Part shown: one piece after another, positions 3,147 to 23,329 of the stretch
How the letters are laid out: each line of letters begins with the position of its first letter
How positions within the stretch are numbered: position 1 is the stretch's first letter
Assembly (NCBI GenBank): GCA_025059195.1
Contig: JANXDU010000015.1
Location: 1-64,000, forward strand
Origin: Candidatus Bathyarchaeota archaeon
GTDB taxonomy: Archaea; Thermoproteota; Bathyarchaeia; Bathyarchaeales; Bathycorpusculaceae
DNA length: 64,000 nucleotides
Direction of reading: 5' to 3'
Program-made: the position numbers and the translations under genes
The notes under the pieces: generated by a model
Database searches by the model: none
The model's input: only the letters and a program-made list of their open reading frames with translations
Told to the model about the DNA's origin: nothing

Positions 3147-4241
3147 GTGTTGTACAAGAAATTATGTTCCATTGTCTTTTGCAGTGTTTTTCTGGCTAGC
3201 GTTTTCACCGCAATAAGTGACAACAATTTCGCTTCAGCTCAGAATGGAACCAAAATAATAATAGTTCCAAGCAGCATTGAAATTATCCGAGGGCAAGAAA
3301 GCACAGTTTATATAAACGTAACTAATGTTGAGGATCTTTATGCTTGGGAGTTTCAGCTCACGTATAATCCTTTAATCTTGGACTTAACCAGTTGCGCAAT
3401 AGTTCCCAACGGTTTGAACGAGCCTACTCAAACTTTTTACAGCCTCACGGACGAGGTAAATGGGCTTTTATGGTGGGCTGTTTCAACCACTCACCCAACA
3501 AGAGAAGGAATTTCTTACGAGTCACATGCCATTTTCGAGATACGCTTTAAAGCAGTCAACGCTGGCACCTCCCCTCTTACATTAAGAGGTACAATCCTTT
3601 CAAACAGCCAAGCTCAACCAATAGAACACACCACCTATAGTGGTGTCATTTACGTCAAAACTTTAGACTTGGTTGTTACAAGCATTAAGATACTTAATAA
3701 ACATGCCAACGAAATTTGGATGCACAGCATATATGCCAACGACACATGGGCAGATGGAGCAGCCTACTATTACCCCGTTAACGTTACGATAAAGAACACT
3801 GGAACGTTAGTTGCGGCTAACTTCAAAGTAAAACTTGAAGTTTACTACGGTACATCGCTTAAAGCCTCTGCAGAAAAAGAAGTAATAACCCTTGAAGGGG
3901 GAGCGTCAAAAGAATTAACTTTTCATAACCTGTTCCATCCAACCAAAACCGGCGATCTAGGCGCATACATTCTCAAGGCTACTGTAGATAGCGAAAACAC
4001 TGTCATAGAGGACGACGAAACCAATAACCAGTTGTTAAAGATGGATTTTATGGTAACAATAATGGGAGACATCAACCGCGACAGAAAAGTTAACATACTA
4101 GATGGTGTAATCCTTGCCCTTGCTTGGACAGGAAAACCCGGCGATCCACAATGGAACACCGCAGCAGACCTTAACCACGACGACGAAATCAACATTCTGG
4201 ACGGTACACGAATGGGCTTGAACTGGGGCAAATCCTGGTGA
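3147..4241 (+). CDS. Secreted cohesin-CARDB-dockerin protein
   Basis: A 364-residue exported protein. Residues 1-32 form a signal peptide, about 37-171 a cohesin module (INVTNVEDLYAWEFQLTYNP, and the later IFEIRFKAVNAGTSPL block), about 173-303 a CARDB Ig-like adhesion module, and 307-364 a type I dockerin with two calcium-binding repeats (DINRDRKVNILDG and DLNHDDEINILDG). Cohesins bind dockerins, so one chain carries both halves of a binding pair and could link to its neighbours or to itself. There is no catalytic domain. Start is GTG at 3147 (TTG at 3150 possible) behind GGGAGAGAGG. Close relatives follow at 5250 and 8349, so this is a tandem paralogue family. The outside-cell scaffold role is inferred. 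Confidence 0.85.
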   Translation: MLYKKLCSIVFCSVFLASVFTAISDNNFASAQNGTKIIIVPSSIEIIRGQESTVYINVTNVEDLYAWEFQLTYNPLILDLTSCAIVPNGLNEPTQTFYSLTDEVNGLLWWAVSTTHPTREGISYESHAIFEIRFKAVNAGTSPLTLRGTILSNSQAQPIEHTTYSGVIYVKTLDLVVTSIKILNKHANEIWMHSIYANDTWADGAAYYYPVNVTIKNTGTLVAANFKVKLEVYYGTSLKASAEKEVITLEGGASKELTFHNLFHPTKTGDLGAYILKATVDSENTVIEDDETNNQLLKMDFMVTIMGDINRDRKVNILDGVILALAWTGKPGDPQWNTAADLNHDDEINILDGTRMGLNWGKSW

Positions 4242-5249: not shown

Positions 5250-8174
5250 ATGCGAAGTCTCACGCGTCGTAATCGACAACTGTCAACTACATTAATGCTA
5301 GGAATAATTTCACTTGGTTTTCTTGCTTCTTCTGCGGTTCTTGCACCTGTTCCTCCTCCTAACTGGTGGAACATCGGCTGGCGATATCGTAAATCGTTAA
5401 TTATAGATCACACGAAGATAGCCTCTGACCTTACCAATTTTCCAGTTTTGATAAACCTCACCGATTCTGATCTGGCGGAAAAGGCTCAATTCTATGGCGG
5501 AGACATCGTTTTTACAGACATAAATGGTCAAAAATTGGCTCATGAGATCGAATTTTATGACGGAACATGCGGGGCGCTCATTGCATGGGTTAAAATTCCA
5601 TATTTATCACCCACCAGAGACACAACCATCTACATATATTACGGCAACTCTGACTGCCCAAACCAAGAAAATCCACGGGAGGTTTGGGACTCAAACTATA
5701 TGATGGTGCACCATTTCAATAATAAGAAATACAACTCTATAGAATGCCGCTTTTGGGGTATGATTTCGCAAACAGTGCTGCCGCGGGCCGTGGTTTTGGA
5801 TCATCTGATAAATCTGCCTAACTCGCTGAAAAACCTCGGGCTAACAAATCCTGACGGATGGGGACTTGCCTACTACAATAACAATGCACCAGTCATTCTA
5901 AGAGGACAACCTTCTGCTTACACGGATCCAAATTTCTTCTTAGCCGCCCAAGAGTTAGCGTCGAACGGTGCTTGGATTGGAATTGGGCATGTCAGGAAAT
6001 CAACTTCTCCCCCATATAATGTTCCCAACCCTCATCCGTTCATCCGTTCAAAGCTTGGTAAAATGTGGACTTTCGCTCATCATGGTGTGATAGACAAATC
6101 AGTGCTTGTCACGCTGATTGGAGAAGACTATCTAGCTGCTAATCCCCCTCAGCATGGAAGTAGCATAAGCGACTGGAACGATTCAGAACTATATTTTATT
6201 TATCTCCTAAAATGCATAGAAAAAAAGCTGGGTGACGTTAAAAAGGGTGTGGCAGAGGCTGTAACAACAATATGCTCTTACAGCTCAAGTTACAACATGA
6301 ATTTTGTCCTCTCTGATGGTACAACGCTGTGGGCTTTCCGAAGGGGTGACCCAATACATCAGGTTTACTACTACTATAATTCGACTTATCCCCAATACTC
6401 GGCTGTTGTTTCACAGTATCCCGGAAGCACTCAAGGGAACTGGGTTCCACTAAAAAATTACAATTTTGTTGAACTTACAGGAAATAATGCGCCGCTTATA
6501 GTAGAGGACGTGCGGCAATACGCGACCGCAGAGCACTTTGACTCAACAGCAAATCGCAACGATGGAATTGCCCGTAATGGTGTGGTTACAAAGGCGAAGG
6601 GGAAAATAGACGGAGGCGATTATTTTGACGGAGTTGATGATTACATCTTTGTGGCTCATGACTCAACTCTTGATGGTGGTGGAAATTGGCAACAAATAAC
6701 CGTTGAGTTCTGGGCAAAATCAACCAGAGACCATCAGAAAGCAACAATAATTCTCTCGAAGAGGGAGACGGGAACAACCCCGTTTAACTCAAGTTACCAA
6801 ATCGGATTCGACTCTAACGGAAACAGTCAGCTCTTTTGGGGGCTCTACTTGGATACAGGGTATGTGGATACGCCCTACAGTAGTTGTCCCACGCTTGTTA
6901 CGGATCAATGGTATCATGTAGTAGCCACCTTTGAAAGCCCATCAATAAAACTCTACGTCAACGGCCAACTTGTTTCCACAAGTATTAAAGCAGGAAAGAT
7001 TCTTCAATCAAGAAATGTTCCGCTTCGCATAGGTTGCAGAGGCACGGGCACAGGGCTTGAAAGGTTTTTTGCCGGTTTTCTTGATGAAGTGCGCATTTCA
7101 GATATAGCCCGTTCTGAAGGGTGGATACGTACGTCCTTCGCGAACCAAAATAACCCTTCTGAGTTTTACACTGTTGGAAGCGAGGAAGCTGTAGCTCCAA
7201 CAACCATGCAAGTAAACCCGGAAGTCACAGCGGTCCCCCTTGGCGCAGAATTTACTGTATACGTCGAAGTCACCAATGTGGTCGACCTCTACTCCTGGGA
7301 TTTCCGGCTAAACTACACAACTGCAGTTTTAGAGCTCATCTCGTGCTCCATTGTGCCCGGCGGCTTAAACGAGCCCACTTACATCCAATACAACATAACG
7401 GACAAGGAATATGGACACATTTGGTGGGCTGTGTCAACAACTATGCCGACTGAAAGAGGGGTTTCATATAATAGGCATGCAATATTTGAGATCCGTTTTA
7501 AGGCGAAGGCGTTGGGCACTTCAAGCCTTAACCTTTACGGCTCAACCTTATACAACAGCACTGGAAACCCGATAGAACACGCGGTTAAAAGCGGACAAGT
7601 AAAAGTAGCTGGAAAAGTTGATCTGTTGGTTGAAAGCGTAAGAGTGTTGGATTACAGCTGCAGCGTTTACGCTAATGACACTTACGTGGACGGTGCTACC
7701 TACTATTACCCAGTCGAAGTTAGAGTGCGAAACATTGGCACAGCTTCAGCTGGATCGTTTTATGTTAAACTAGAAGTCTTCTGGATTAACGGCTTAACAA
7801 CTGAAACTTCAGAAGAAAAATTTGTTTTAGAACTAGCTGGAGAAACAAGTGTTGTTGTCAACTTTACCGATGTTTTTAGTCCGGCCCACTCGGGCTTTTA
7901 CAGGTTGATCGTCACTGTGGATAGCAGAAATAACGTCACCGAAAGTGATGAAACAAACAATACACTAAGCTTAGAAAACATTAAGGTCACGGTTATTGGC
8001 GACATTAACGGCGATAGAGTAGTCAACATCTTCGACGGAGTAATCGTCTCTTTAGCTTGGTCAGGGACGCCTGGATCGCCGCAGTGGGATATTAGGGCCG
8101 ACGTTAATCATGACGGCCAAGTAAACATCCTAGACGGTGCTAGAATATCGCTTTATTGGGGACGAAGCTGGTAA
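5250..8174 (+). CDS. Secreted DUF2341 / LamG / cohesin / CARDB / dockerin protein with a class II amidotransferase domain nested in LamG
   Basis: A 974-residue exported protein. In order: signal peptide (1-33); DUF2341 (about 45-150); the first strand of a LamG/concanavalin-like lectin fold (VWDSNYMMVHHF, about 146-157); an insert (about 159-427) with the features of a class II glutamine amidotransferase of the YafJ/EgtC type; the rest of LamG (about 428-648, resuming HFDSTANRNDG); cohesin (650-785); CARDB (787-915); two-repeat dockerin (917-974). The insert shows CRFWGM at Cys166, NPDGWGLAYYN, GHVRKST, a HPFI segment and FAHHGVI. Cys166 would have to become an N-terminus to act as an Ntn nucleophile. 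The usual HNG oxyanion Asn is His here. The frame is open throughout and the insert has no start of its own. ATG at 5250 follows AAGGGAGAG. Confidence 0.8.
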   Translation: MRSLTRRNRQLSTTLMLGIISLGFLASSAVLAPVPPPNWWNIGWRYRKSLIIDHTKIASDLTNFPVLINLTDSDLAEKAQFYGGDIVFTDINGQKLAHEIEFYDGTCGALIAWVKIPYLSPTRDTTIYIYYGNSDCPNQENPREVWDSNYMMVHHFNNKKYNSIECRFWGMISQTVLPRAVVLDHLINLPNSLKNLGLTNPDGWGLAYYNNNAPVILRGQPSAYTDPNFFLAAQELASNGAWIGIGHVRKSTSPPYNVPNPHPFIRSKLGKMWTFAHHGVIDKSVLVTLIGEDYLAANPPQHGSSISDWNDSELYFIYLLKCIEKKLGDVKKGVAEAVTTICSYSSSYNMNFVLSDGTTLWAFRRGDPIHQVYYYYNSTYPQYSAVVSQYPGSTQGNWVPLKNYNFVELTGNNAPLIVEDVRQYATAEHFDSTANRNDGIARNGVVTKAKGKIDGGDYFDGVDDYIFVAHDSTLDGGGNWQQITVEFWAKSTRDHQKATIILSKRETGTTPFNSSYQIGFDSNGNSQLFWGLYLDTGYVDTPYSSCPTLVTDQWYHVVATFESPSIKLYVNGQLVSTSIKAGKILQSRNVPLRIGCRGTGTGLERFFAGFLDEVRISDIARSEGWIRTSFANQNNPSEFYTVGSEEAVAPTTMQVNPEVTAVPLGAEFTVYVEVTNVVDLYSWDFRLNYTTAVLELISCSIVPGGLNEPTYIQYNITDKEYGHIWWAVSTTMPTERGVSYNRHAIFEIRFKAKALGTSSLNLYGSTLYNSTGNPIEHAVKSGQVKVAGKVDLLVESVRVLDYSCSVYANDTYVDGATYYYPVEVRVRNIGTASAGSFYVKLEVFWINGLTTETSEEKFVLELAGETSVVVNFTDVFSPAHSGFYRLIVTVDSRNNVTESDETNNTLSLENIKVTVIGDINGDRVVNIFDGVIVSLAWSGTPGSPQWDIRADVNHDGQVNILDGARISLYWGRSW

Positions 8175-8348: not shown

Positions 8349-10148
8349 TTGCAGAATCGGATTTTGCCCATTCTGCTAATTGTGGCACTCCTGTTGGCTA
8401 GCGTTGCCGTATTAAATTTCAATATCAAGCCCGTAGCGGGGCATACGGATTTGCTTGTTGACCCAGGGTTCGACGACAGCGTCAACAGCACCGATTTGAG
8501 GAACAACTCTCCTTGGCAAGACTGGTACGAAAGTCGTGGAAGCTTTTCAACGGGCGATTCAACTCTCCTTTCTCTTGACACTTCTGACGTCGGAGGCAAC
8601 AAAGGCAAAAAAGCTGCACTGAAAAACTTTGGTGTCTCACGTAATGCTTACCTAACCCAAGAGTTCAGCTCGCCGCAAATCGGAACATTCAACGTTACCT
8701 TCGACATCTATATAGATAGGATACAGGACAACGGCGACTATGATCGCGTAGGCCACATTTACATAGGGGACGATAGATATACAGTGGACGCACCGACGGG
8801 AAGAAGCGACGAAAGATTCGTATTATTAGCTTTCTACGACCCAACTCCAGGCGAAACAGGAACCGACATCCAAATAAGAGCGCGGACTACAGCCAGCCAG
8901 TCTTGGAGCATCACCTCTCAATGGTTGCAAGTGGCAACAGGCCTAAGCTACAAAACATGGTACACCATTAAAATAGTGGTCAAAGTAGCCAGCGGCGTAT
9001 ACGACGTTTACGTCAACGGAGAGCTGAAAAAGGCCAACATTACAAAATATTCAGGTTACACGCCTACGTCCGTAATTTACATAACTTTTTCAGCAGACAG
9101 CGACGGCAGAGGAGACTTCTATGTAGATAACGTTTTCTCTCCAGATCCAGAAACCCGAATTAAGGTTGTGTCTAAGGTTTCAGAAGTCCTTGTTGGACAA
9201 GAGTTCGCAGTATACATAAATGTGACAGACGTCGCCGACCTCTACGGCTGGGAATTCCAATTCAACTACAACCCATCAATCCTTGATCTCACACACAGCG
9301 TTATAATATCTGGAGGGCTTAACGAACCAATCAATATTTTCATGAGCTTAATAGACGAGGAAAATGGGCGTCTATGGTGGGCAGTTTCAACCCGTTATCC
9401 TACTACCGCTGGAATTGCATACTTAGACCGAGCAATCTTCGGAATGCGCTTCAAAGCCATAGCTGCCGGAGCCACAAGCCTCGATTTAAGCGGAACAGTC
9501 CTTGTTGATAGTAACGGAAATTCAATCCAGCACAAGGTGGTTAACGGTTCTGTAAGCGTGCAAACCTTGGACTTGATAGTGGAAGCAATTGAAATAACGA
9601 ATAAGCACGCAAAAGAAACATGGCTTGGAAGTATATACGCCAACGACACGTGGTGGGATGGAGAGACACCCTACTATTACCCAGTTAACGTCACAATCAA
9701 AAACACTGGAACGAAGCCAGCTACAAACTTCAAAGTCAAACTGGAAGTTTACTACGAAACGTCGCTTGAAGCCTGGGGCGAAATAACTGTTGGAAACCTG
9801 CCCGGATCATCCTCGCTAGAATTGACCTTTGCCAACGTGTTTCACCCCACAAAAACAGGAGACATAGGAAAATACGTTCTAAAAGCAATAGTGGACAGCG
9901 GAAATGTTGTGATGGAAACCGACGAAACCAACAACATGTTAGAAAAGAAAGATTTTATGGTGACAATTATGGGTGATGTTAACGGCGACAAGACGGTTAA
10001 CATTCTCGACGCAGTGAAAATTGCATTGGCATGGAATGGCAAGCCAAGTGATCCCCAATGGAACATATACGCCGACCTGAACCATGATGATGAAATCAAC
10101 ATTAATGACGGAATCCGGATAGGACTTAACTGGGGAAAACGGTGGTAG
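8349..10148 (+). CDS. Secreted LamG-like / cohesin / CARDB / dockerin protein
   Basis: A 599-residue exported protein. A signal peptide (about 1-34) is followed by a jelly-roll domain (about 36-265) of LamG or glycan-binding type (WYTIKIVVKVASGVYDVYVN), a cohesin (about 271-405; INVTDVADLYGWEFQFNYN), a CARDB module (407-537) and a type I dockerin (542-599; DVNGDKTVNILDA and DLNHDDEININDG). The CARDB and dockerin are close in sequence to those of the gene at 3147 (shared SIYANDTW and YYYPVNVTIKNTGT), which points to tandem duplication. The start is TTG at 8349 behind AAGGAG; an ATG at 8341 is in another frame. The lectin-like domain suggests the binding of a carbohydrate or surface polymer; the ligand is unknown. 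Confidence 0.82.
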   Translation: MQNRILPILLIVALLLASVAVLNFNIKPVAGHTDLLVDPGFDDSVNSTDLRNNSPWQDWYESRGSFSTGDSTLLSLDTSDVGGNKGKKAALKNFGVSRNAYLTQEFSSPQIGTFNVTFDIYIDRIQDNGDYDRVGHIYIGDDRYTVDAPTGRSDERFVLLAFYDPTPGETGTDIQIRARTTASQSWSITSQWLQVATGLSYKTWYTIKIVVKVASGVYDVYVNGELKKANITKYSGYTPTSVIYITFSADSDGRGDFYVDNVFSPDPETRIKVVSKVSEVLVGQEFAVYINVTDVADLYGWEFQFNYNPSILDLTHSVIISGGLNEPINIFMSLIDEENGRLWWAVSTRYPTTAGIAYLDRAIFGMRFKAIAAGATSLDLSGTVLVDSNGNSIQHKVVNGSVSVQTLDLIVEAIEITNKHAKETWLGSIYANDTWWDGETPYYYPVNVTIKNTGTKPATNFKVKLEVYYETSLEAWGEITVGNLPGSSSLELTFANVFHPTKTGDIGKYVLKAIVDSGNVVMETDETNNMLEKKDFMVTIMGDVNGDKTVNILDAVKIALAWNGKPSDPQWNIYADLNHDDEININDGIRIGLNWGKRW

Positions 10149-10254: not shown

Positions 10255-10303
10255 TGTAAATTCATAATTTAACCGAAAACGTTTGAGGAAGGGAGAAGGG
10301 AAC

Positions 10304-12139
10304 ATGCAAATTTTAAAGTTATGTCGTGGGATTTTGTTTCTTAACATCATAATTACAGTAATTTTAATGAGCATTTTTACAACATCCGTGGTTCACGTTT
10401 CTGCAGCGAATCCAACCATCTACATCGATCCCGCTGCAAAAACAGTCAAGGTTGGAGAACAATTTACTGTAAATATAAGTTTGGATTATGCAGAAAAACT
10501 ATATGGTTATGAAGTGTGGTTAAGCTTCGACAAAAACAAGTTAAATGCAACAGCGATCGAATACAAAGGTTTCCTTAATACGCCTATAATGGTTTGGTAT
10601 AAATTGGTTAACAATACGGGCGGATATGTAGCTTTGGCAGTGTCAAGTCTTCACCCTGCAGAGGCAAAGACAGGAGGATCACCTCCCCCATTAGCGACTG
10701 TTCACTTCAAATGCATAGGAGTTGGAAAATCTCCACTTCGTCTTTTCAAGACTATACTTTCCGACAACCAAGCCCGAGCAATCCCCCATACAGTTTTAGA
10801 TGGTGAATTAAATTGTGTCCCCCATGAACCGAAAATATTAATAATGCCTGCCATCACGTTCGTTAGAGTAAACGAAGAATTCAACGTAACAGTAGCGCTT
10901 GACTATGCGGAGAACCTTTACGGTTTCGAGTTCTGGTTAAGCTTCGACAAAACCAAACTGTATGCCAAAGCAATACATTATACAGGATATCTAAACGAAC
11001 CATCAATAATCTGGTACAAGCGGATCAACAACACAGCGGGATACTTAACATTAGCGGTTTCAAGCCTTCATCCTGCGACGGGAAAAACAGGCGGTGGCAA
11101 CCTTGCCATCCTGAACTTCAGAAGTATCTCAACCGGAACTTCTGCACTGCGTTTATACAAAACATATCTTGTGAATGACAAAGGCAAAGCGATAGCGCAC
11201 ACCGCCATCAACGGAACAGTTCACGTAGTAACGGGTGTATTACACGATATAGCAGTGACAAAAGTAAAGTTACTAAAAACTGTAGTTGGGCAAGGATATG
11301 CCACAAATATAAGTGTTACCGTTGAGAATCAAGGCGCCTGCCCTGAAACCTTTAATGTTTCCTTGTATGCTTCAAGACCCGACGTTGGAATTGTCAACAT
11401 TAAATTGTTCGGCTCTACCGCTAGAGGATGGGGCTTCACAAGAGACGGTATGACGATTCCAGGACCCCCAATAACCGTCAAAAAGGGAGACATTGTTAAC
11501 CTAACGCTTACCAGTGTTGATGCGAGAATTCATAATTTCTTTGTTGATTACAACGGAAATACCTATCGAGATTTAGACGAGCCTATCTCACCAGACTTTC
11601 CAGCCCCGCCATATTATATGCCAACAATCACCTTCAAATTTAAAGCAGAAAGAGTTGGAACATTCAAATACTATTCTAGTTATGATAAAACTACCATGTA
11701 CGGCGATTTTATAGTTGAGGAACCAACAGTCCGTACAACAGAGATAAGCAAAAAAGAGATAACTTTGAACGGGGGGTCCTCTGCAATTCTAACCTTCACA
11801 TGGAACACTAATGACTTTGCTAAAGGAAATTACACCATTTGGGCCTATGCTTGGCCCGTACCGGACGAAATAGATGTCGCTGACAACACGCTTGTCGGTG
11901 GATGGGTTTTTGTCTCCATTCCAGGCGATGTAATACTAGAGTTTCGCCTAGTTGACATTTACGATGTGACAGCCCTATGCGCTGCTTACGAAGCTAAACG
12001 AGGCTTTGACGGCTATTACTGGCATGAACATGTCTGCAACCAATGCCCCCACAGTTCCAACTTCGACATAAACGACGACGGCATCATAGATATATTCGAC
12101 GTAGTTATATGTACAAGCCGCTACGAGCAAGCATGGTGA
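10304..12139 (+). CDS. Secreted double-cohesin protein with a cupredoxin-like domain nested in CARDB and a divergent dockerin
   Basis: A 611-residue exported protein. Signal peptide 1-35; cohesin 1 about 38-170 and cohesin 2 about 176-307 (both with YAExLYGxExWLSFDK); then the first half of a CARDB module (about 313-357, ending ETFNVSLYA), an insert of about 120 residues (358-477) resembling a cupredoxin (TVKKGDIVNLTLTSV, RIHNFFVDYNG, GTFKYYSSYDKTTMYGDFIV), and the second half of CARDB (ITLNGGSSAILTFTWNTN). The C-terminus is a dockerin whose first repeat is degenerate and whose second is normal (DINDDGIIDIFDV), with WHEHVCNQCPH between them. In the cupredoxin part the usual copper Cys is Ser, while a His and the late Met remain. 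ATG at 10304 follows GGGAGAAGGG; an earlier in-frame TTG at 10283 is less likely. Confidence 0.78.
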   Translation: MQILKLCRGILFLNIIITVILMSIFTTSVVHVSAANPTIYIDPAAKTVKVGEQFTVNISLDYAEKLYGYEVWLSFDKNKLNATAIEYKGFLNTPIMVWYKLVNNTGGYVALAVSSLHPAEAKTGGSPPPLATVHFKCIGVGKSPLRLFKTILSDNQARAIPHTVLDGELNCVPHEPKILIMPAITFVRVNEEFNVTVALDYAENLYGFEFWLSFDKTKLYAKAIHYTGYLNEPSIIWYKRINNTAGYLTLAVSSLHPATGKTGGGNLAILNFRSISTGTSALRLYKTYLVNDKGKAIAHTAINGTVHVVTGVLHDIAVTKVKLLKTVVGQGYATNISVTVENQGACPETFNVSLYASRPDVGIVNIKLFGSTARGWGFTRDGMTIPGPPITVKKGDIVNLTLTSVDARIHNFFVDYNGNTYRDLDEPISPDFPAPPYYMPTITFKFKAERVGTFKYYSSYDKTTMYGDFIVEEPTVRTTEISKKEITLNGGSSAILTFTWNTNDFAKGNYTIWAYAWPVPDEIDVADNTLVGGWVFVSIPGDVILEFRLVDIYDVTALCAAYEAKRGFDGYYWHEHVCNQCPHSSNFDINDDGIIDIFDVVICTSRYEQAW

Positions 12140-12150
12140 ATGTCTCAATT

Positions 12151-13257
12151 TTATTGTTTGTAGGTTTTTAACGGTTTTCCAAGCTTTGCGGTATCCAGCT
12201 CTCTTATGCCCAGCCCATAGATTTTGGGGAACACCCGCATGGATTTTTTAACCTTCGTTCCACCCCTCTTGACAAGCTTGTCTTTAAGCAGCAAATCCGA
12301 GTCTAGATCTGCGTATTGAATATTTCTTACTGCTGCTGCTAGGTGGGCGCCGGCGGCTATGCCTATTTCTGATTCGCCCATGCACCCTATCATGCATGGT
12401 ATGCCAGCAGCCTCAGCTATGGCGGCTATTTTCCTAGCTTTGTGGATTCCGCCGCTCTTCATCAGCTTAATGTTGATGAGGTCTACGGCTTCAGCCTTTA
12501 CTAGGCGTATGGCGTCTTCTGGCGAGTGGACGCTTTCATCCGCCATGACCGGTATGGGCGAGTTCCGTTTAACTTCGATTAAGCCTTTCAAGTCTTCGGC
12601 TGGGACTGGCTGTTCTGCAAATTGCACATTGTATTTTGCCATCTTGTTTAGGGCTTGTATGGCTTGTTTCGGCGTCCACCCTTGATTAGCGTCTATCCGA
12701 ATTTGGACGTCGTCGCCGACAGCCTCTCGAATAAGCTTAACTCGCTCAACGTCTTCTTGAGGGTTTACGCCCACCTTAACTTTTAGGGCTTTAAATCCGC
12801 GTTTAACGGCTTTAACGGCATCCTTAGCCATTTCTCTTGGAGTTTTTATGCTTAAAGTTACGTCTGTTAAAACTTCTGTTCGGTAGCCGCCCAGCACACG
12901 ATGAAGCTCTTTTCGAGCAGTTTTACCGAAAACGTCGTGGAGAGCTATATCTATGGCTGCCTTCGCCGAGGGGTTTCCCGCCACAAGCTTATCCATAACC
13001 TCAACAATCTGTTCAATGCGTAATGGGAACATGCCAATCAATTTCGGTGCAATCTTGTCAACGGCTTTGATGACGGTTTCAGCTGTTTCGCCGGTAACCC
13101 TTTCTGAGGGTGAGGCCTCACCCCAACCATAAACGCCGTAATCCGTGACCATTTTGACGATCACGTTGTGGCTTTCAGTGCTTGCACCTGGTGCAATCCG
13201 AAACGGCTCACGATAAGCCAGCGTCACGGGGTAGACTTCAATCTGTTGGATGCCCAA
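12151..13257 (-). CDS. L-Ala-D/L-Glu-type dipeptide epimerase (enolase superfamily)
   Basis: A 368-residue member of the muconate-lactonising branch of the enolase superfamily. These enzymes abstract the alpha proton of the C-terminal residue of a dipeptide by a Lys/Lys pair. Visible are KVKVG (first catalytic Lys), RIDANQGW, AEQP and MADESVHS (the Mg-binding Asp/Glu/Asp set), INIKLMKSGG (second catalytic Lys) and CMGESEIGIAAGAHLA, which is typical of the Ala-Glu epimerase clade. Length is normal. The start is TTG at 13257 behind GGTGAG. It converges with the cohesin cluster, its stop lying 11 bases from that gene. Substrate specificity in archaea is often other than Ala-Glu, so a broader dipeptide epimerase is possible. 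Confidence 0.88.
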   Translation of the reverse strand: MGIQQIEVYPVTLAYREPFRIAPGASTESHNVIVKMVTDYGVYGWGEASPSERVTGETAETVIKAVDKIAPKLIGMFPLRIEQIVEVMDKLVAGNPSAKAAIDIALHDVFGKTARKELHRVLGGYRTEVLTDVTLSIKTPREMAKDAVKAVKRGFKALKVKVGVNPQEDVERVKLIREAVGDDVQIRIDANQGWTPKQAIQALNKMAKYNVQFAEQPVPAEDLKGLIEVKRNSPIPVMADESVHSPEDAIRLVKAEAVDLINIKLMKSGGIHKARKIAAIAEAAGIPCMIGCMGESEIGIAAGAHLAAAVRNIQYADLDSDLLLKDKLVKRGGTKVKKSMRVFPKIYGLGIRELDTAKLGKPLKTYKQ

Positions 13258-20977: not shown

Positions 20978-23329
20978 GTGAAGAATAATAAGGCGCGATT
21001 TTTGTTTGTTTGTCTGCTGATTCTTTTGTCAACAACGGTTATATGCTGCCCTTCGCTGGTCTCTGCTGAGCCACGGGATTTCACTCCGTACCATAAAATA
21101 CAAGGGATTCTTGCGGAAATAGCAGCGACGAGCAACAGAGTTAAAGTGGAAGTCATCGGGCAGTCTGTTGGTGGAAATGATTTATACCTTGTAACTATAG
21201 CAAGTCCGCAAGTGCTCAATAAGTTGAACTATTACAAGTGGTTCGTCCAGTTTACTGTGAATTACCCCGAGAAGGCTAGATGGCTCGTAGAAAAGGGTGT
21301 AGTGGACTATAAGGCCACAATTTATATTCATGGAAGCATTCATGGCAACGAAATGGCTGGGACAGATGCTTGCCTGGACCTAATACGGTTGTTGGCCTAC
21401 GACAACAGCGATGAAGTGCAAGAGATTTTGAAAAACGCTATTATCATTATAAACGTTTGTGCAAATCCTGATGGAAGAATAGCCAATATCAGACAAAATA
21501 ACAACAATTTTGATTTGAACAGGGACTTCATAACGGCATCCCAGCCTGAAACTCGGTTAACCATACAGAAAGTTTTTCTCGAATGGACACCCCTTGTGAC
21601 CCTTGATCTTCATGGCTACATGGGACCCGACTGGGTTCTTATTGAGCCTTGTACACCACCCCACAACCCGAACACAGAATTTGACGTTTTGATAAAACAC
21701 TTGTATCCTATGGCCTTGGAGATGGAGGCCGCCCTTAAAACAATAAACATTTCTACAGTGATTCCCTATAGAGATTGGCCGGCTGAATGGGATGATTACC
21801 CACCAATCTTTACGCCAATGTACGGATTTTACCACGCTTCGTATGGCATAACCTTCGAGACAGCCAATTGGCGTTCTCCAGGAACCATTGAAACGTCAAT
21901 AAAGTGCCATTACTTGGGTTCTTTGGCGGCAATAAAGTATACCGTAAAACACAAATATGAAATGTTCTGGGGGCAAACAGAAATTTTCCTCAGAGGACTG
22001 CGCCGTGGAAACGGAAGATTCCCCTACGCATATATTATACCGGTAGATCCTAAATTGCAAGTGGACCCCCTGGAAGCGGTGGACCTTGTGAACCACCTGA
22101 TTTTCCATGGAGTAAAAGTGCATGAAGCTACGCATCCATTCAAAATTGGCAAAACAGTTTATCCCAAGGGTACTTATGTCGTTTTAATGAACCAGCCGAG
22201 GAGCGGTCTTGCGAACACTATTCTTTGGGATGGAGAAAACCTTTCACCCCCACCGGACTACGGCTTAGACTTGCCAATGTATGATATCTCGGGTTGGAAC
22301 TTTCCAGAGCTTTGGGGAGTAACAGTGATACCTGTTGACCAAAAGTTCCATGCATGTCTTAAACCCGTTAAGCAAGCGGATTATCCAAAAAGTGAGATAG
22401 TTGGTTTTGGCGATTGCTACTTTGCCCTCAAAGACGACACGAACAATGCTGTTAAAATGGTTAACAGGCTTCTCGCCGAAGGAATAAAGGTTTACTGGAC
22501 AATTGAATCTTTCAACTGGTGTGGCGCAACGTTCAGGACGGGAACGTTCATAATTCCAGTCAAAGACTTCTGGACAAGGAGGATGGTATACAAAATCGCC
22601 AAAGAGCTGCATTTAACTTTGTACAAGGTGGGCAACGTAAAAGTGGGTATGAAACCTCTTCAAGAGCCAAAGGTGGCTATAGTCTTTGATAGTGGAGTGA
22701 GCAGAGCATCCTACGGTGCGGCAAACTTCGTTCTCAAAAACCTTGGCTTCAAGGTGGACACCATTAACTATGCCGCCATAAGACGAGGAGCCTTGCAAAA
22801 CTATGATATTGTGATTATTCCCGACGGTACAAATACAACGATAGCAAACAGGCTTGGAAGCGTTGGACACCAGAAGCTCAAAGAGTTTGTGGAGGCTGGC
22901 GGCGTCTACTTAGGCTACGGTGAGGGGGGAGGATCCCTTGCAAGCATAACAAGCCTCATCAACGTTAAAGCCATTCGTTCAGGGAACTACGGAGGCTACA
23001 ACAATGGGGTAGTACGAATAAACTATAATCCAAACGATCCCGTAACCGCTTACTATCCGTTAAACGGATACGCGTTTGTCTTCTTCCCAGTATGGTTTGA
23101 AGCAGGCCAAGGCGCCGAGGTCTTGGCAAAATACGCAGAAAAAGACCTCCTTGTCGCAGGATGGTGGCCATACTACGACGTGACAGCCTCGGGACAGCCC
23201 GCTATTGTCAAAGGATCCTATGGTAATGGAACCATCATTTTGATGGGAATAGAACCCACCTTCAGAGCTCATCCAGAAGTAACCTTTAGACTGGTGGCAA
23301 ACTCAATTTTTCTAGCAGCCTCCAATTAG
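20978..23329 (+). CDS. Secreted M14-family zinc carboxypeptidase
   Basis: A 783-residue exported peptidase. A signal peptide (about 1-30) precedes an M14 domain with zinc ligands in SIHGNEMAG (His/Glu near 121-124) and LDLHGY (near 210), the substrate-binding FDLNRDF, and a catalytic Glu candidate in GITFETANW. Zinc carboxypeptidases of this type remove C-terminal residues from peptides or cell-wall stem peptides. The last 230 residues form a class I amidotransferase-like flavodoxin fold (PKVAIVFDSGVSRA, VIIPDGTN, GGVYLGYGEG), a known tail of large M14 proteins with no evident catalytic Cys. GTG at 20978 follows GAGGAG. It probably feeds extracellular peptides to the cell. Confidence 0.87.
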   Translation: MKNNKARFLFVCLLILLSTTVICCPSLVSAEPRDFTPYHKIQGILAEIAATSNRVKVEVIGQSVGGNDLYLVTIASPQVLNKLNYYKWFVQFTVNYPEKARWLVEKGVVDYKATIYIHGSIHGNEMAGTDACLDLIRLLAYDNSDEVQEILKNAIIIINVCANPDGRIANIRQNNNNFDLNRDFITASQPETRLTIQKVFLEWTPLVTLDLHGYMGPDWVLIEPCTPPHNPNTEFDVLIKHLYPMALEMEAALKTINISTVIPYRDWPAEWDDYPPIFTPMYGFYHASYGITFETANWRSPGTIETSIKCHYLGSLAAIKYTVKHKYEMFWGQTEIFLRGLRRGNGRFPYAYIIPVDPKLQVDPLEAVDLVNHLIFHGVKVHEATHPFKIGKTVYPKGTYVVLMNQPRSGLANTILWDGENLSPPPDYGLDLPMYDISGWNFPELWGVTVIPVDQKFHACLKPVKQADYPKSEIVGFGDCYFALKDDTNNAVKMVNRLLAEGIKVYWTIESFNWCGATFRTGTFIIPVKDFWTRRMVYKIAKELHLTLYKVGNVKVGMKPLQEPKVAIVFDSGVSRASYGAANFVLKNLGFKVDTINYAAIRRGALQNYDIVIIPDGTNTTIANRLGSVGHQKLKEFVEAGGVYLGYGEGGGSLASITSLINVKAIRSGNYGGYNNGVVRINYNPNDPVTAYYPLNGYAFVFFPVWFEAGQGAEVLAKYAEKDLLVAGWWPYYDVTASGQPAIVKGSYGNGTIILMGIEPTFRAHPEVTFRLVANSIFLAASN

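Follow-up and report, generated by a model that had tools for sequence, protein, structure and literature searches.

A GATase_4 domain of EgtC/YafJ type within an exported bathyarchaeal protein, likely nested in its LamG domain, and its exported relatives

The window, by which we mean the whole 64,000-nucleotide stretch of Candidatus Bathyarchaeota contig JANXDU010000015.1 that was analysed, encodes a 974-residue exported protein whose domains are listed in Table 1. This open reading frame and the motifs quoted from it in the preliminary description (C166-RFWGM, NPDGWGLAYY, GHVRKST, HPFI and FAHHGVI) are all present. The GATase_4, Laminin_G_3 (PF13385, 94.7 bits) and DUF2341 (PF10102, model match at residues 83-169) matches all exceed the curated Pfam cut-offs; because of these E-values the domain matches are far beyond chance, and the observation is confirmed. 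The gene is one of three closely spaced genes on the same strand that have a common tail type and differing heads. Because this tail is common to both flanking genes (49-54% identity), they form a tandem surface-protein set with exchanged heads, and a chain that bears both cohesin and dockerin points to a surface array that assembles itself.

Table 1. Features of the nested-domain gene and its two flanking genes (positions in the window)
Feature	Position	Strand	Basis or remark
Neighbour, cohesin-CARDB-dockerin tail 54% identical to that of the nested protein	3147..4241	+	Pfam, tail comparison
Gene for the 974-residue exported protein	5250..8174	+	Signal - DUF2341 - [GATase_4 insert] - LamG - cohesin - CARDB - dockerin
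Sec-type signal peptide, residues 1-32 (...FLASSAVLA, cut before PV)	5250..5345	+	Read by eye from the sequence
DUF2341 region, residues ~37-144	5358..5681	+	PF10102 E 4.7e-11; whole-region homology to L204/L207/L208/L033
First LamG strand and start of the interrupted loop, VWDSNYMMVHHFNN, residues 145-158	5682..5723	+	Matches VWDANF..V.HM/HL of uninterrupted relatives and the start of L035/L036
Inserted GATase_4/Ntn (EgtC-YafJ type) domain, residues ~159-424	5724..6521	+	PF13230, AlphaFold2, EgtC fold match, exported clade
I164-E165-C166, candidate nucleophile Cys with -2 and -1 residues	5739..5747	+	Clade alignment
H277-H278-G279, oxyanion motif (codon of 278 is CAT)	6078..6086	+	Clade alignment
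Remaining LamG domain, residues 429-640	6534..7169	+	PF13385 (Laminin_G_3) E 7.7e-27, at 461-626
Cohesin-like domain, residues 658-786	7221..7607	+	PF00963 E 6e-9
CARDB domain, residues 820-907	7707..7970	+	PF07705 E 2.1e-12
Type I dockerin, residues 917-966	7998..8147	+	PF00404 E 6.1e-7; phmmer match to 2y3n_B
Neighbour, tail of the same type 49% identical, different head	8349..10148	+	Pfam, tail comparison

Further along the window lies a gene for a double-cohesin protein (10283-12139) with a weak cupredoxin-like C-terminal stretch (Cu-oxidase_3 E 0.02; nitrite reductase model E 6.6e-5). Adjoining the surface-protein cluster is an enolase-superfamily gene (12151-13257) that resembles L-Ala-D/L-Glu epimerases (E 6.7e-90, below the equivalog cut-off); from its position we would guess that it fits scavenging of Glu-containing peptides.

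According to Pfam the insert belongs to the GATase_4 family (PF13230), with an E-value of 4.9e-18 (65.5 bits) in the whole protein and of 3e-19 (69.5 bits) for the insert alone, against a cut-off of 23. When modelled alone with AlphaFold2 and 56 relatives, it reaches a pLDDT of 90.6 and a pTM of 0.89, and a Foldseek comparison of this model with the PDB returned EgtC first (4zfk, E 4.8e-14), followed by the YafJ-like 1te5, GlmS and PurF. Model and matches place the insert in the Ntn alpha-beta-beta-alpha fold. The preliminary description had set this fold beforehand as a test of its proposal, and the proposal withstood it, with the high pLDDT and EgtC as the top match; Pfam family, predicted fold and Foldseek matches agree on the YafJ/EgtC-type class II amidotransferase domain that it had named.

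EgtC of ergothioneine biosynthesis (4ZFK/4ZFJ/4ZFL) is the best fold match (TM 0.78 by target) and, like the insert, an Ntn Cys amidohydrolase that stands alone and lacks a synthase domain, but the identity is only 16-18%, and the oxyanion Asn of the insert's clade is a His in the nested copy. EgtC is cytosolic and begins with Met-Cys. The YafJ-like GATase_4 proteins (PF13230; Pseudomonas 1TE5) share the Pfam family, the motif order and the fold with the insert, but they are cytosolic, carry the Cys after Met and are not nested. PurF (glutamine PRPP amidotransferase) has the class II fold as well, but it works in biosynthesis in the cytosol or plastid, has a PRTase domain and resembles the insert only remotely in sequence. 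Among amidotransferase-type NCBIfam models the EgtC equivalog TIGR03442 is the top match of the nested protein and its relatives, yet the nested protein stays below its cut-off (43.9 vs 218.65 bits). The nested protein has no acceptor or synthase domain; a hydrolase that, like EgtC, has no synthase partner is more in keeping with secretion than an amidotransferase would be. To our knowledge, domains of the class II amidotransferase type are taken to be intracellular. Among Ntn Cys hydrolases, the penicillin V acylase, C45 and PLBD types include secreted or lysosomal enzymes whose Cys is uncovered by processing (PMC9140057), but these are other Ntn families, and the insert has no such Pfam match.

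The insert is best bounded at residues ~159-424 (5724-6521), and a short linker, RQYATAE, precedes H429-F430-D431. Insert-free relatives are continuous at this site, where they read VWDANFKAVYHMRDATTSTIKDSTSGSHDG (L207), VWDANFRLVAHLAQDPNGDGASAIKDSTSNGNDG (L204) and VFHFNNNFNDSVDGN (L033), and so is a further relative, L208; the 974-residue protein reads VWDSNYMMVHHFNN before the insert and EHFDSTANRNDG after it. The earlier claim that a class II/Ntn domain was inserted in frame near the LamG start of an exported chain is upheld. Surface proteins that combine DUF2341 and LamG with cohesin, CARDB or dockerin have the same host architecture, but an enzyme domain in the first LamG loop is absent from the relatives that we read.

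Current Pfam limits (DUF2341 83-169; Laminin_G_3 461-626) place the insert between the two models, as would be expected if the order were linear, DUF2341 - GATase_4 - LamG, with the pre-insert strand counted as part of DUF2341 and no nesting at all. We consider this order quite unlikely. Stand-alone LamG proteins without DUF2341 open with the same strand (L035 with GLVGWWPGDGN...DANHGTL, L036 with LALWHFDQIQTPDATGNDN), and HFDSTANRNDG, directly after the insert, resumes their LamG pattern. Because L035 and L036 start in this way, the strand MMVHHF belongs to LamG, and the insert therefore lies in the loop that follows the first LamG strand. A model of 604 residues of the nested protein was poor (pLDDT 60.5), MAFFT having pulled LamG rows into the insert, so that true nesting in this loop is to be taken as likely, on the sequence comparison.

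The nested form was found in one MAG only. No second nested protein was present among the matches in 257 genomes of the class, 398 of the phylum and 147 of the WOR-3 phylum, in 227, 345 and 376 genomes of three further phyla, or among 80 loci from a genome-collection scan. No relative of the insert was found in viral contigs, and phages and plasmids gave only remote YafJ-type matches. A single occurrence, with the gene absent from three genomes of the same genus, is also what an assembly chimera or a frameshift artefact fusing two genes would produce. We nevertheless reject a chimera as scarcely credible: both junctions are in frame and lie within a loop that is variable among relatives, the insert lacks precisely the signal and C-terminal anchor that free relatives have, and the genome holds no other copy of the insert for recombination during assembly. 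The GC and GC3 of the insert are the same as those of the host gene, and its codon use is within the range of other genes in the window, which makes a chimera unlikely in its own right. Insertion by a mobile element was likewise rejected, the ends showing neither target duplication nor inverted repeats beyond short chance-level matches, and so was a stand-alone enzyme made from an internal start: the TGC at 5745 is preceded by GAA and has no start codon just before it; Cys166 is encoded inside the precursor chain.

The preliminary description knew of no described secreted example of such an enzyme. This needs correcting insofar as the insert falls into a monophyletic clade of exported GATase_4 proteins from Bathyarchaeota and WOR-3 bacteria. 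In a maximum-likelihood tree all 13 exported rows form one group (support 100/100; stem length 1.46 changes per site), in which the nested copy, alongside members that bear export signals, is the sister of L069 (support 99/94). L069/L002 (Bathyarchaeota archaeon L.E.AR.33) is free-standing and 47-49% identical to the insert; it consists of a signal, a pro-stretch (..SEAFHE|CRFWAM.., the bar marking the position before the nucleophile), the GATase_4 domain and a C-terminal membrane helix. Two further bathyarchaeal genomes hold a frame-broken free-standing copy with a signal and HQ|CRFWAM (G076, L003/L027) and a remnant (G117, L026), respectively. About 1.2 kb from the frame-broken copy lies a gene for an AAT/C45-type Ntn hydrolase (L216:5148-6227 in G076; PF03417, E 1.4e-36).

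Fourteen WOR-3-phylum genomes encode exported GATase_4 proteins, either whole (about 400-440 codons) or as fragments. These proteins begin with a signal or lipobox, followed by H[NE]|CR[FLM]W and the GATase_4 domain, and four of the five scanned end in Por_Secre_tail (T9SS) and/or FlgD_ig tails. These proteins (L174-L187, L209-L215) mostly carry T9SS/FlgD-like tails. In the closely related L174, L177 and L182 a lipobox-like Cys is located about 8-10 residues ahead of the nucleophile Cys, and cleavage at the nucleophile would therefore free the lipid anchor.

In cytosolic relatives, which make up the majority of matches across order, class and phylum and in the genome-collection scan, the Cys stands directly behind the start codon (Met-Cys). 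Exported members have H-[N/E/Q]-Cys after a short pro-stretch instead, with a -2 His that is invariant among the clade members other than the nested copy. The internal position of Cys166, which had been noted as needing cleavage, is thus real but not peculiar to the nested form. No exported member was found among the matches in 948 genomes of the three further phyla, where the best hits read were cytosolic, and open-access text yielded no published account of secreted class II amidotransferases or of such LamG insertions; the exported GATase_4 family is small and apparently undescribed. Export of GATase_4 is thus not unique to the nested protein, and the nested form itself is a single case. 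Nesting would be a derived state, because free-standing exported members are spread across the clade and the nested form is a single tip.

The nested copy departs from this clade at its active site. The -2 position is Ile164, whereas each of the 16 other members with coverage there has His, and position 278 of the oxyanion motif, Asn in 16 of 16, is His, so that the nested copy reads H278-G279; the replacement of the oxyanion Asn by His had been reported correctly. The Gly that is invariant in the clade at position 254 is Pro. For N278H a single base substitution suffices (for example AAT to CAT), and with only one MAG it might be a sequencing error. On the other hand, the core residues Cys166, His247, Arg249, Gly279 and Asp311 are kept, among them the substrate Arg of HVR (Arg249) and the Asp of DS[DE] (Asp311), so the nested copy may still be active. 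The nested copy departs at 7 of the 43 sites that are invariant in all other members, the -2 His, Gly254 and the oxyanion Asn being among the seven, while L069 departs at 1 of 37 and the others at 0-2, a borderline difference that is based on one nested sequence set against the comparably distant L069 (Fisher p 0.063).

These seven departures, together with the gene loss that the frame-broken G076 and the remnant G117 document in other Bathyarchaeia, could be taken to mean that the insert is a decaying, functionless remnant. This is very improbable, because the 974 codons run without a stop or frameshift, the fold is predicted with confidence, and the branch of the nested copy (0.49) is no longer than that of its intact sister L069 (0.61). 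Given these branch lengths, we read the departures as a sign of changed function rather than of general decay, and an active site of this kind suggests that the nested copy may have ceased to work as a normal enzyme. The class II domain stands, but a working amidotransferase is doubtful, since the -2 His and oxyanion Asn of the clade and any acceptor or synthase domain are missing. For the same reasons it is more cautious to speak of an amidohydrolase-type domain that may be altered or inactive.

The architecture and the exported clade are observed; on this basis we lean, with moderate confidence, towards a real domain-in-domain insertion in an uncut chain, in which the nested copy is a catalytically altered module and the free-standing members are extracellular gamma-glutamyl amidases. 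An exported EgtC/YafJ-type Ntn amidohydrolase domain would sit behind the first LamG strand of a Sec-exported surface protein, in the loop that follows, and it lacks both a signal peptide and a C-terminal anchor. Free-standing members would be exported and then lose the pro-stretch at H-[N/E/Q]|C, before the nucleophile Cys. We infer this removal from the position of the Cys, the invariance of the -2 His and the pro-peptide cleavage of PurF enzymes, in which self-cleavage exposes the Cys (PMC7056826). After maturation they would hydrolyse gamma-glutamyl amides (or glutamine) outside the cell, and judging from sequence and analogy they are most likely extracellular gamma-glutamyl amidases or glutaminases. 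The nested copy, in contrast, would remain uncleaved as a folded module beside the lectin fold in a single chain, and would bind, or slowly hydrolyse, a gamma-glutamyl-type ligand. It is probably uncleaved, catalytically altered, structurally intact and domesticated: the missing -2 His and oxyanion Asn make the uncut, altered state the most likely one, and cleavage before Cys166 is improbable because it would detach the first strand of LamG.

Could the nested copy be a working enzyme? It might cut itself before Cys166, so that DUF2341 and the first strand of LamG would form a chain of their own, kept in the lectin fold by contacts, while the freed Cys would hydrolyse extracellular gamma-glutamyl amides. 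Retention of Cys166, HVR, Gly279 and Asp311, the internal Cys behind a pro-stretch throughout the clade, the occurrence of E165 at -1 also in L069, L174, L177 and L182, and self-cleavage of the pro-peptide in the related PurF enzymes (PMC7056826) would all fit. We still regard this reading as doubtful, because the -2 His that is invariant elsewhere is Ile, the oxyanion Asn is His, and such a cut would split the host fold behind its first strand. In a bolder and rather unlikely version, a self-processing extracellular Ntn gamma-glutamyl amidase would cut its own host lectin, so that enzyme maturation and reshaping of the lectin would be one event within a cohesin/dockerin-linked archaeal surface assembly.

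A monophyletic exported clade common to Bathyarchaeia and WOR-3 bacteria would imply extracellular gamma-glutamyl amide chemistry in sediment microbes, and it offers a clear test of how extracellular Ntn Cys enzymes mature. The nested copy, perhaps an enzyme turned binding module, illustrates cleanly how one globular domain can be set into another while the reading frame stays intact.

Elsewhere in the window, a 783-residue protein (20978-23329) pairs an N-terminal M14 carboxypeptidase match with a C-terminal match to BPL_N (biotin-protein ligase N-terminal), which is an unusual combination. A TPP riboswitch is located on the minus strand of this archaeal contig at 61233-61345 (69.7 bits against a gathering threshold of 54.3).
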